24,921 nt of DNA from a virus, in IMG/VR virus record IMGVR_UViG_3300035660_001477, positions 1 through 24,921 of that record; one strand, given 5' to 3'. A program made the translations under genes and the position numbers. Numbering within the stretch: position 1 is the first letter of the stretch; the number at the start of each line of letters is the position of its first letter. Shown here piece by piece: positions 4,165 through 8,084 of the stretch. The notes below the pieces were generated by a model. The model worked only from the letters and a program-made list of their open reading frames with translations. It was not told the DNA's origin and searched no databases.

Positions 4165-5775
4165 TCAAATCAACCTCGCAATCTTGTGTCTACTCATATG
4201 ATCTGACTTGCTCCTGAGAGCATACAAATAATCAGCCAGAAGCGGAACCTCACGACCCAACTCCAAAGTTATCTCAAGCGTCTGCGTTTTAGCATTAACA
4301 TAATACTCAACGGGGAGAATGCGAAAATCGGCGTTTACGTTTTCATTGGGCAGAACCACGGTGATCTTGTCTGCTGATAAAAGAGGTGTGGTTCCATAGT
4401 CGATGACTGTACTCCGGACCGTGGTGTACTCCGCAGGATCCTTAAGCTGTGCCAGAATAGCTTTTGCTCTCAGCATACATTCATTATCGCTGTAGAACTC
4501 CTCATCAACTTCAACAAGTTCTCTTAAACCGTAATTACTCTGGCTTGTGGCATCCTCTTGTGTGCTGCTATATCTTCGCCCACCAAAGAATAAGCCATCA
4601 ATCCACATAGTATTTCCGCCAGCTGCAAAACCGAAATACTCACACTGGACCTTCTTTATTTGCGTCCAATCAAATCCGCTATCGACAATCCAGTCATCCG
4701 CATTCTCAACGCCAACTTTAAGCGTCTCCAAACACCATTTGCTGTTGTCTTGGACCTCTACGCCCACGTCTACGTTATTGCCAATTCTAGCTACATGACT
4801 ATTTATATCGATCAACTTCACTGTTACCGGGTACTTTGCATTAAGGGCAAGGAAAAACTTTAGCACAGGATACAGGTTCGCATTAACCTCTTTTCCAGAG
4901 TTTAGAGTGAAAATACTGATCGCGTACTCTGCAATGCCTCGAACATTCTTTATGCTATACGATCCCTTAGCCTTCGAACTACCATCAAGACTGATCGTAT
5001 TATTGGCATCTCCAACACTCCAAGCGCCATCCGTCGGCGTCAGGCTTTCAGTCCACGCATCCTTGTCTAAAGGAGCGCTTTTGTCTGCAACACCATAGAC
5101 CGTAATCTTGTTTCTAACAGCGGTGATATCTTTGCGGTATTCGCTACTTTCAATCTTCTCGCTGAGGCTTACTGAAGAAGATTTGCTTAAGCGTTGGAAA
5201 AACTCGAATTTGCCATCAGGAGCCACGCGAAAATCATACCCAATAACGCCAGCCTTGTCGCTGGCTGCAGCAATAGCCTTGAGGATGTCGAATACTGGAG
5301 TATTGTCATATTCCAACTTGGTGAATGTTGTATCGGTATCTTCAACGAGCTCTGTTCCGCCACGGTTATGGCTTAATCCTGCGAAAGAATCCATCAAGTC
5401 CTTAACTATGGCTTCGCCTTTTTGATTGGAGTATGTCTTCGTAACTACCCTGCGGAATAGCTTTTCTCCCCAACATCGACCGCTCACACGCAGATAATTC
5501 TCGCTAGGACCTGACTCGTACTTGATGCTCTCGGTATGAGTGGTAATGATCTGTGGAACATTGACGCCTCTTCCAATATTGATATAACCATCCTGGCCAA
5601 CAATGATCGGATAAGTCCCGCCCGGACTATACTTTTTATCCCAATTCTGCAGAAGCAACTCCCAACTGCTGACTTCTTTCGTGGCTCCTAAATGTACTCT
5701 GGCCTCAACGACATCCCCTTGGGGCGGTGTAACAGAACCCAGAACCACAGCCAACTTCGGAATGTCAACACTCAC
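4165..5775 (-). CDS. tail tip/baseplate hub-like protein with beta-sandwich insert
   Basis: The 536-residue protein follows the tape measure, where siphovirus hub/tail-tip proteins are encoded. The N-terminal part (1-230) and C-terminal part (410-520) look like one hub-type fold. They carry WELLLQNWDKKYSPGGTYPI, NKITVYGVAD and the C-terminal LVEVDEEFYSDNECMLRAKA with a long helix then beta strands, as in gp27/Gp37-type hub proteins. Residues about 233-405 are a separate beta-rich module (TDGAWSVGD, then ISLDGSSKAKGSYSIKN, ending GNTMWIDGLFFGGRRY), resembling carbohydrate-binding jelly rolls. Start is GTG at 5775, overlapping the tape-measure stop as GTGA. The hub call rests on order and general pattern; the insert is inferred from its composition and clear boundaries. 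Confidence 0.75.
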   Translation of the reverse strand: MSVDIPKLAVVLGSVTPPQGDVVEARVHLGATKEVSSWELLLQNWDKKYSPGGTYPIIVGQDGYINIGRGVNVPQIITTHTESIKYESGPSENYLRVSGRCWGEKLFRRVVTKTYSNQKGEAIVKDLMDSFAGLSHNRGGTELVEDTDTTFTKLEYDNTPVFDILKAIAAASDKAGVIGYDFRVAPDGKFEFFQRLSKSSSVSLSEKIESSEYRKDITAVRNKITVYGVADKSAPLDKDAWTESLTPTDGAWSVGDANNTISLDGSSKAKGSYSIKNVRGIAEYAISIFTLNSGKEVNANLYPVLKFFLALNAKYPVTVKLIDINSHVARIGNNVDVGVEVQDNSKWCLETLKVGVENADDWIVDSGFDWTQIKKVQCEYFGFAAGGNTMWIDGLFFGGRRYSSTQEDATSQSNYGLRELVEVDEEFYSDNECMLRAKAILAQLKDPAEYTTVRSTVIDYGTTPLLSADKITVVLPNENVNADFRILPVEYYVNAKTQTLEITLELGREVPLLADYLYALRSKSDHMSRHKIARLI

Positions 5776-6323
5776 GGAGTACTTTCAACTCCTCGACGGT
5801 AGAGATCAGCCTCTCCAGCACGTTGAATGCTACGACCTTGAGTTGGCATTTCAGAAGCAGCCTCATTGAAGTTTTGAACGCTTGCAGTTGCAGCATTCAT
5901 TTGACTTGCGAAATACCACATAGCCGCGGCTGCTGCAACGATTACCGCTATACCGACACCAGTCAAGGCTAGAAATGTCCCATACGAAATGTTCAAAGCG
6001 TTCTGGGCAGCCGTGGCGATCCAGCATGCAGCAGCATAGACTTTCTGAGCCACAGCTAGACCAATACTTGTCCGCATAAACATGCCCATAACCGTGACAA
6101 CCATCATAGCACTATTGAAGACTCTAGCCTGCTCATCATTAAGCAATCCGAACTCATGTGCAATATGACCAATTACCATGCCAGTCGCACCTAAACCAGC
6201 AATAGCGGCGCCAAGGCTCTTTATCCGCACACTCAAGGCTTCAGCGTCTGTCTGTATCCTAGAAAACTCTGCACTAGCTCGGTTCACTGCTCGAATTGTA
6301 ACGGCAATCTCACGGAAACTCAT
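5772..6323 (-). CDS. short tape measure-like protein
   Basis: The 183-residue protein has the features of tape measure N-termini. It begins with a soluble helix of the type VTIRAVNRASAEFSRIQTDA. A glycine/alanine-rich hydrophobic segment follows (about 36-52, LGAAIAGLGATGMVIG), then hydrophobic stretches at about 70-110 and 112-137 and a polar tail. It lies between the chaperone/gp10-like genes and the hub gene, as tape measures do. Tape measures usually have 600-2000 residues, so this one is strikingly short and would specify a very short tail or only its core. The ATG at 6323 overlaps the previous stop (ATGA) and its own stop overlaps the hub GTG. A membrane protein of other function is the alternative. 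Confidence 0.65.
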   Translation of the reverse strand: MSFREIAVTIRAVNRASAEFSRIQTDAEALSVRIKSLGAAIAGLGATGMVIGHIAHEFGLLNDEQARVFNSAMMVVTVMGMFMRTSIGLAVAQKVYAAACWIATAAQNALNISYGTFLALTGVGIAVIVAAAAAMWYFASQMNAATASVQNFNEAASEMPTQGRSIQRAGEADLYRRGVESTP

Positions 6324-6688
6324 AAACCAGCCTCCGATTTGGCCTGCTCAATAGCGCCAATAATGTTCATTTCGAGACTTGGCAAATACTCTTGGATGGC
6401 CGGATAGAGATACGGTTGCGCTCGCATTCGCATAGTCCCCAATTCTACGAAAAGAGCGTAAGTAGCTTCAGCTCCTATCTCAGCGACCCAATCCTTGATC
6501 TTAGCATAGATTGAACTTCTTAAATGACCTGTTCTTACTGGAGCGTTTCGCATGGCTGCAGCCTTAACATCACTCGCCCAGCTGCACAGATACCGGTAGA
6601 CCTGACGCTGCATGCCACTATCAAACTTCTGCATTGCCGCTTGAAACTCTTCAACACCTTCAACGTCGCAGGTTATTTCAATGGCCAT
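6320..6688 (-). CDS. HK97 gp10-like head-tail/tail component protein
   Basis: The 122-residue protein matches the HK97-gp10-like pattern. An N-terminal helix starts after VEGVEEFQAAMQKFDSGM. The diagnostic APVRTGHLRSSI (about 50-61) and the C-terminal YALFVELGTMRMRAQPYLYPAI (about 77-98), with its G-T-x-x-M/R-x-A-x-P-F/Y-L core, follow. In most siphoviruses this neck protein is encoded between head-closure and tail-terminator genes; here it lies after the tail chaperone. The ATG at 6688 has GAGAGG about 10 bases upstream. Its first bases overlap the end of the -1 frameshift extension of the chaperone (stop at 6678-6680), which makes the arrangement compact. Confidence 0.85.
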   Translation of the reverse strand: MAIEITCDVEGVEEFQAAMQKFDSGMQRQVYRYLCSWASDVKAAAMRNAPVRTGHLRSSIYAKIKDWVAEIGAEATYALFVELGTMRMRAQPYLYPAIQEYLPSLEMNIIGAIEQAKSEAGL

Positions 6689-6881
6689 GTTTCTTTGCCT
6701 CTCTTTCCGCTTTCTCCTTCTCCTCGAGGGCCATCTGATCCATCACATTCAAGATGACACAGAACTGTTGGATTGTTTTTGCTGGCTCTCTCGCGAGCTG
6801 AGTGGGGAGCCATCCGAAGGCTTGACAAAGCCGAAACTCTGAAAGAGCCGGATGCGGCTTTCCTCGTCTAATTGCGAGAGT
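6678..6881 (-). CDS. -1 frameshift extension of tail assembly chaperone (GT product)
   Basis: After a -1 slip at F110-L111 (TTT TTA) the reading frame stays open for 67 more codons, to TGA at 6678-6680. The fusion product would be about 178 residues. The extension reads AFGWLPTQLAREPAKTIQQF near its middle, resembling the W-x-P/S-x pattern common in the downstream halves of phage chaperones, and ends in a charged helix EEKEKAEREAKK. This frame has a TGA just upstream of the slip region (about 6940) and no ATG until 6765-ish, so it is not an independent gene of normal size. Its stop overlaps the start of the gp10-like gene, closing what would otherwise be a 60-base gap in a tightly packed operon. 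Confidence 0.8.
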   Translation of the reverse strand, partial: TLAIRRGKPHPALSEFRLCQAFGWLPTQLAREPAKTIQQFCVILNVMDQMALEEKEKAEREAKKHGH

Positions 6882-7213
6882 AAAAAACGGAGATCCTCGT
6901 GACTCATGCCATTGAGTTTGTTCGCAACCTTTGAGAATAATTCACCAAGCTCTATAGGAACACCGACATCCTCGCCCAGAAGCTTCTCAAGTGAAATAGG
7001 TTTGCCCTCTGGCTGCTCCTTGAGACTCGCCCAGATAGTATCTGCTTGAATGGCGATGAAGTCGCTACTCTCAACTTCGCCGCTTGCCTTGCTGTATTTA
7101 GTGTACTTCTGAATGATGCGATTTCTCTTAGCCCATGTAATCTCCTGAAATACATAATGCCCTTGGTACTCTTTCCCAAATCTGTCATCAATTTCTAAGA
7201 TTTCAGTTTTCAT
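6749..7213 (-). CDS. tail assembly chaperone, zero-frame product
   Basis: This 154-residue acidic, mostly helical protein lies between the tail tube gene and the tape measure, the usual place of the G-type tail assembly chaperone. Chaperones of this kind coat the tape measure and guide tube polymerisation. The start, ATG at 7213, has a near-perfect AGGTGAT site a few bases upstream that overlaps the tail-tube stop codon. After residue 111 the zero frame becomes a low-complexity tail ending SNSSVSS, while the -1 frame carries a family-like sequence. The heptamer at 6881-6887 lets ribosomes switch frames, so this ORF is the short form of a two-product gene. Confidence 0.85.
   Translation of the reverse strand: MKTEILEIDDRFGKEYQGHYVFQEITWAKRNRIIQKYTKYSKASGEVESSDFIAIQADTIWASLKEQPEGKPISLEKLLGEDVGVPIELGELFSKVANKLNGMSHEDLRFLLSQLDEESRIRLFQSFGFVKPSDGSPLSSRESQQKQSNSSVSS
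6881..6887 (-). promoter_or_regulatory. -1 ribosomal frameshift slippery heptamer T_TTT_TTA
   Basis: On the minus strand the bases read CG T TTT TTA CTC. TTT and TTA are in-frame codons of the chaperone (F110, L111), so this is an X_XXY_YYZ heptamer in the correct phase for a -1 slip. About 18 bases downstream an imperfect hairpin can form at 6841-6862 (GAAAG paired with CTTTC, CCG with CGG, loop CATC). The spacing is longer than the usual 5-9 bases, so the stimulator is uncertain. Confidence 0.8.
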
Positions 7214-7223
7214 GCTTAATCAC

Positions 7224-8084
7224 CTAAGTAATTGCAAGAGGATCCTTAGCTACGAATCGCGCTTTGGCGCAGATTAAGTCTTCCAGCCATTTCGTGTGCG
7301 TTATGTTATCCCATTTGCATGCAGTGAAAACGGCTTTGCTGCTTCCTCCCAAGCCAAATTCCAAAGCAAACTCCGTGTCAGCCAACACTTCGTCCATTTC
7401 AGCCTTGCTTTCAAATTCGAAAGTCAATTCTCCGCTTAATTCCCTATGCCCGAACGGAATGTACTTCGCGAGATGCCCGCTTGACGTGCGAATCACTGGA
7501 ACTCTTTTCGGGTTGTTGATGATGTCAAACTTCCAATCGGTAACGCGGTCCAGAACTGTTGTGTTCTTTTTCACATAGCTTTCATGGAAGGCGACAGCTC
7601 CCGCATAATCCGCATATGTCGCACCCGTAATCTTCGCTGTTTCCGTCACGAGATCCTGACCTTCAAGCTCCATGACTGCCTTGATAACATCCTCGATGCT
7701 ACACTCGACCGAGACTTTACTGATGCGCATGCCCTTGAACAATAGCGAGATAATATCTGTCGCTGAAGCAAAAACCCCTTTATAGTAAATCACCTGACAG
7801 CTAAGGCTCTTATCCAAATCCATTTTAGCCCATTGCAAAAGATTTATCGGAGCCTCAGAAGGCACTATATAGTCAATTTTCAAGTTTGGTTTTCTCAGGC
7901 CCTTCTTAATAGCCTGCAAATCATAGCTGCCAGCGCCACGCAGTTTGAGGTTGCTAGGGTCGAGTCCAGGATCGATAACATTACAGGGCACGCCCAACAT
8001 CGATGGATTTGTGGGCGTGGTTCCAAAGACACTTTCCTCGACGTAGTAAAACCGCTCTTCATCTACTCCATATGTATCAACCAT
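7224..8084 (-). CDS. major tail tube protein
   Basis: The 286-residue beta-rich protein opens with MVDTYGVDEERFYYVEESVF then GTTP, a start typical of phage tail tube proteins (E-x-x-x-G-T-x-P). Strands continue in the pattern of the tube fold, and a late ELSGELTFEFESKAEMD region resembles the outer hairpin. It is followed by the chaperone and tape measure and preceded by the tail terminator, the standard siphovirus order. The ATG at 8084 has GGAGG 11 bases upstream. With no sheath gene beside it, the tail is probably non-contractile. A tail tube family search would confirm it; identification here rests on order, size and opening motif. Confidence 0.8.
   Translation of the reverse strand: MVDTYGVDEERFYYVEESVFGTTPTNPSMLGVPCNVIDPGLDPSNLKLRGAGSYDLQAIKKGLRKPNLKIDYIVPSEAPINLLQWAKMDLDKSLSCQVIYYKGVFASATDIISLLFKGMRISKVSVECSIEDVIKAVMELEGQDLVTETAKITGATYADYAGAVAFHESYVKKNTTVLDRVTDWKFDIINNPKRVPVIRTSSGHLAKYIPFGHRELSGELTFEFESKAEMDEVLADTEFALEFGLGGSSKAVFTACKWDNITHTKWLEDLICAKARFVAKDPLAIT

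Follow-up and report, generated by a model that had tools for sequence, protein, structure and literature searches.

The gene at positions 6,678 to 7,213 of the window, by which we mean the whole 24,921-nucleotide stretch analysed from virus record IMGVR_UViG_3300035660_001477, very probably encodes the G and GT tail assembly chaperones of a tailed virus of Bathyarchaeia and expresses them by programmed -1 ribosomal frameshifting. We directly observe a slippery motif, its phase and its conservation in relatives, a switch in the reading frame under selection, the homology and predicted fold of the parts, and a conserved gene order. The gene comprises the following features:

6,678 to 7,213, minus strand: G-T fusion gene with a predicted 178-residue frameshift product, supported by the junction heptamer and -1 extension of its relatives
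6,749 to 7,213, minus strand: zero-frame open reading frame, the G protein of 154 amino acids; residues 1-111 are conserved, and the tail past the slip site is open and poorly conserved
6,881 to 7,213, minus strand: G domain, residues 1-111, with a tail assembly chaperone fold according to a predicted model and its fold matches
6,881 to 6,887, minus strand: slippery heptamer T_TTT_TTA, in phase and kept in relatives
6,678 to 6,881, minus strand: -1 frame extension, the putative T domain, 67 codons plus stop; matches PHROG 9001, with pN/pS of 0.2-0.3 in the -1 frame

Zero-frame codons 109-111 read CGT TTT TTA (R109, F110, L111), and the phase of the heptamer fits a -1 slip. The -1 frame opens at 6,941, 18 codons 5' of the heptamer, and from 6,881 it continues for 67 codons to a TGA at 6,680-6,678, which overlaps the next gene (6,688-6,320) by 11 nt. 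Fusion of 111 and 67 residues would give a protein of 178 amino acids. A preliminary description of this DNA had reported the heptamer in the right phase, the 67 open codons and the overlapping stop, and had predicted products of about 154 and 178 residues; all of this holds, with the product lengths following from the open reading frames.

Relatives were gathered by scans of IMG/VR and GTDB genomes, which yielded 397 loci besides the window, a count that includes overlapping pieces of the same contigs. Between positions -150 and +200 these represent 275 unique sequences, or 146 after thinning below 85% identity. Searches with profile HMMs of each part, G and the extension, found both in 397 of 398 sequences, window included. 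The arrangement that characterizes G/GT genes, a conserved X_XXY_YYZ heptamer at the frame junction followed by an extension in the -1 frame, is present in 396 of those 397. The heptamer is T_TTT_TTA/G (T-type) at 343 loci (TTTTTTA 310, TTTTTTG 33) and A_AAA_AAC/T/A (A-type) at 53 (AAAAAAC 48, AAAAAAT 4, AAAAAAA 1). The exception, locus L242, does carry AAAAAAC, but its G and extension stand one base off the usual relation, as from an indel. Other long open reading frames of the same loci contain 33 in-frame TTTTTT[AG] heptamers among 271,389 codon positions, or about 1.2e-4 per codon; the junction heptamer is therefore not a product of chance. The preliminary description had pointed to related contigs as the place to look for conservation of the heptamer and both frames, and to homologues lacking the heptamer and the -1 frame as evidence against a frameshift; the relatives have both.

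Selection on the two frames changes at the same place. Variability is concentrated at third positions of the zero frame 5' of the heptamer and of the -1 frame 3' of it, with the switch at the heptamer in both types. Upstream in T-type genes, zero-frame pN/pS is 0.39 and -1-frame pN/pS about 1.5. Past the heptamer, the -1 frame has values of 0.29 (T-type) and 0.22 (A-type), and the zero frame 1.07 (T-type) and 1.75 (A-type). The heptamer thus marks the point where purifying selection passes from the zero frame to the -1 frame. The zero frame past this point had been described as degenerate. Its conservation is indeed lost, but in T-type relatives it remains open for 28-46 codons; in most A-type genes it meets a stop within 0-4 codons. 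Zero-frame stops are depleted in the first 40 codons past the T-type heptamer (0.04 versus 1.11 per 40 codons in the third frame), and 96% of T-type zero frames stay open for at least 30 codons, compared to 56% in a synonymous simulation. The T-type zero-frame tail is thus depleted of stops, yet its amino acids are hardly conserved (pN/pS about 1).

The identification as a tail chaperone gene, also made in the preliminary description, is supported for both halves, G by fold and T by profile match. The G domain model (pLDDT 89.6) shares its fold with YqbN (3klu; Z 8.9), which we take to be an XkdN-like prophage relative of a tail chaperone, and with the HK97 tail assembly chaperone (2ob9; Z 6.8), at sequence identities of only 10-12%. 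Although Z scores near 7-9 are modest by themselves, the two leading entries comprise a tail chaperone and a presumed prophage relative of one. Chaperones of the haloarchaeal virus HCTV-1 and of Bacillus phage Gemini are among the Foldseek matches of G to viral models. As modelled, the G domain folds as a tail assembly chaperone. The extension, which modelled alone reached a moderate pLDDT of 78.7, matches PHROG 9001 'tail assembly chaperone' with an E value of 3.9e-12, and 28 of 28 members of that family match; a profile search of this kind had been proposed earlier. By sequence comparison, the T extension is homologous to known chaperone extensions, those of PHROG 9001 and of Bacillus phages. 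The G protein had no match in INPHARED phage records at 0.01, and its PHROG matches are weak. The link to bacterial phages was made by tblastn with the extension and by the fold of G, not by the sequence of G.

Neighbouring genes are those of a tail module:

7,224 to 8,084, minus strand: tail tube (major tail) protein gene, directly upstream of GT and a conserved neighbour (Pfam Phage_tube_2, E 2.6e-15)
6,320 to 6,688, minus strand: HK97-gp10-like tail completion gene (PF04883, E 1.2e-8; phrog_5), present in 144 of 146 thinned loci
5,772 to 6,323, minus strand: probable short tape measure gene, 183 amino acids, from weak PHROG tape measure matches and position; a neighbour in 139 of 146 thinned loci
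4,165 to 5,775, minus strand: tail tip protein gene, phrog_400, YqbQ-like, from profile matches and conserved order

The order tube, GT, gp10, tape measure, tip is kept in relatives. GT sits between the tail tube gene and the weakly identified tape measure gene, with the gp10-like gene intervening. A tape measure of 183 residues would correspond to a tail of about 27 nm at 1.5 Å per residue, which is very short. Elsewhere in the window, positions 1-1,455 encode a protein that joins an ABC-type ATPase region to a GNAT acetyltransferase region (Pfam); a similar ATPase sequence was found in the relative L155.

From these observations we infer that slippage occurs, at an efficiency that would yield two products with distinct roles. 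Most ribosomes would stay in the zero frame and produce G (154 amino acids). A minority would slip by -1 with the Phe and Leu tRNAs on TTT-TTA, which would re-pair with TTT-TTT, and would continue in the -1 frame to produce GT (178 amino acids). By analogy with phage lambda, whose heptamer is G_GGA_AAG, unlike the T_TTT_TTA of the window, the role of G would be to cover the tape measure protein, and that of T to bring in the tail tube protein.

The two heptamer types differ in position. The A-type heptamer, found in 45 of the 275 unique sequences (the other 230 are T-type), lies one codon upstream of the T-type position relative to the extension; this offset of -3 is seen in 45 of 45 unique A-type sequences. 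The junction context differs accordingly: in one example, E-E-T-R-F-L (T-type) becomes E-E-T-K-N (A-type). On a tree built from the two protein parts without the junction, the distribution of types needs four changes, at least two of which are forced by well supported branches, and recombination could also explain such changes. Because another heptamer replaces the T-type, and does so repeatedly on the tree, it is slipperiness rather than the encoded amino acids that is conserved. In A-type genes the interval in which the shift must occur starts a median of 9 codons ahead of the heptamer and ends about 5 codons after it, and in 25 of 27 genes the A-type heptamer is the sole such heptamer within the permitted interval.

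The same product could in principle arise by transcriptional slippage on the six-base run, whereby some mRNAs would carry one base fewer (or two more) and the extension would be read by unshifted ribosomes. It is consistent with this minor rival that every heptamer is a homopolymer run of T or A, with no mixed type such as G_GGA_AAC at the 396 loci. Polymerase slippage, however, usually favours longer runs, and the runs here are six long in 265 and seven long in 10 of the 275 unique sequences, never longer. Moreover, the X_XXY_YYZ phase is preserved when the run moves by exactly one codon. We consider transcriptional slippage improbable. It is less probable still that the extension is a separate gene that overlaps G and has its own start codon. 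Annotations of Bacillus phages, for example Finn, do call the extension its own gene, and 43 of 45 A-type genes have an ATG 18 nt downstream of the heptamer start. In contrast, the open -1 stretch, as far as the conserved core, lacks ATG, GTG and TTG in 198 of 230 T-type genes. The first such codon in the -1 frame of the window comes 135 nt past the heptamer start, too late to launch the conserved part of its extension as a separate product. Judging from these start codons, independent initiation is excluded for most T-type genes, including that of the window.

The chance that faulty sequencing or assembly, or decay of an in-frame fusion, produced the arrangement is negligible. The preliminary description had raised an error in the T run as a possible objection, which many independent contigs exclude: hundreds of them have the identical frame relation and heptamer, and both halves are under purifying selection. 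Among the relatives, which keep the arrangement, we found nothing to favour an error or a decayed fusion. Programmed ribosomal frameshifting is thus our preferred reading of the junction.

T-type and A-type genes differ in the sequence around the slip site. Downstream of the T-type heptamer no conserved RNA structure was found, and folding of the 40 nt past it is slightly weaker than in synonymous nulls (mean z +0.45). A GARGAR stretch at -11 to -6 was considered as a Shine-Dalgarno-like stimulator and rejected; its third positions carry A and G in roughly equal shares, which is explained by Glu codons. In A-type genes, synonymous positions just past the heptamer are unusually constant. A weak hairpin starting 6 nt downstream has 86% of cells paired and two pairs that covary, with a covariation score above all 500 shuffles; the RNAalifold consensus for A-type sequences predicted no structure. 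This hairpin is a candidate stimulator, and the data on it are suggestive only. A-type relatives also have GGGCGATG conserved after the heptamer, where synonymous variation is low (e.g. L099, 10,327-10,386).

Among the genome loci with relatives, 21 of 23 are titled Bathyarchaeota or Bathyarchaeum, one Crenarchaeota and one is a Bipolaricaulis MAG; several of the host-genome matches are on contigs of 0.2-2.2 Mb. One gene in a Bathyarchaeota MAG is 87% identical to the window gene. The host of the virus in the window is, by its relatives, most likely a member of Bathyarchaeia, and the preliminary description of the gene as archaeal-type fits these titles. The relative in the Bipolaricaulis (bacterial) MAG (L100, JAQTNX010000020.1) sits on a long branch and may reflect either a binning error or a bacterial host. 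One Bathyarchaeota genome (JAAKEZ, G001; locus L084) has five PHROG 9001 matches, and therefore several such proviruses.

A tblastn search with the consensus extension found 33 phage records of Bacillus, Geobacillus and, weakly, Thermoanaerobacterium, with E values down to 1e-8. Bacillus siphoviruses (Andromedavirus Finn, Andromeda and Blastoid; 276BB001 and 019DV002) and Geobacillus GBK1 carry a homologous -1 extension and share the order tube, G, T, tape measure; a joined G-T gene is annotated in two of the Bacillus siphovirus records. The nine Bacillus or Geobacillus records examined have a six-A heptamer at codons 109-113, A_AAA_AAG in seven and A_AAA_AAA in two, whereas the viruses of Bathyarchaeia have T_TTT_TTA/G or A_AAA_AAC/T (A_AAA_AAA once), and A_AAA_AAG is absent from all archaeal members found here. 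The hosts differ, and so does the placement of the tail completion gene: in the Bacillus phage records examined it precedes the tube gene, and the tape measure comes directly after T, with no gp10-like gene between, whereas in the window it lies between GT and the tape measure.

Phage lambda gpG/gpGT is a similar case of a tail chaperone that gains a C-terminal T domain by -1 frameshifting (PMC5009743). Among viruses with archaeal hosts, a -1 frameshift in the G-T gene has been reported for the haloarchaeal viruses HVTV-1 and HCTV-1, -2 and -5 (PMC8211752). The slip site is A_AAA_AAC in HCTV-2, G_GGA_AAC in HCTV-1 and G_GGA_AAG in HCTV-5 (PMC5009743); HVTV-1 differs from the window in its G_GGA_AAG and in a different, longer extension. 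The preliminary description had called chaperone frameshifts well known in bacterial siphoviruses. The Bacillus homologues agree with this, and the haloarchaeal precedents need to be added (PMC8211752, PMC5009743). Very few examples of programmed -1 frameshifting are known in archaea: one is a cellular gene, and the others come from a handful of haloviruses (PMC8037382, PMC8211752). The genes described here are a new archaeal branch of a known system and not the first archaeal case, the haloarchaeal viruses being earlier. Two open-licence papers on Bathyarchaeia viruses and proviruses make no mention of frameshifting, though one of them names JAAKEZ010000002, the contig that carries L084.

A_AAA_AAG greatly exceeds A_AAA_AAC and U_UUU_UUA in slipperiness in E. 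coli; on mammalian ribosomes, A_AAA_AAC is among the best sites and U_UUU_UUA is the HIV site (PMC5009743). One could envision, as a tentative reading, a single homologous G-T gene in both domains whose slip site is tuned to the ribosome and tRNAs of the host, in T-type genes with no recognisable stimulatory structure. The heptamers of the Bathyarchaeia viruses would then be of the kinds that are slippery on eukaryotic ribosomes, as in HIV and other retroviruses. The contrast between heptamers agrees with such tuning but does not prove it, because heptamers are inherited within each group and may reflect one or a few events; the mixture of heptamers in HCTV-1, -2 and -5 is also relevant here.

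Open-reading-frame finders that ignore the shift overlook the T domain in such genomes. The loci assembled here offer, for a single site in viruses of uncultured archaea, hundreds of naturally occurring variants, together with heptamer replacement and a bacterial homologue, and the determinants of slippage on archaeal ribosomes therefore become testable.
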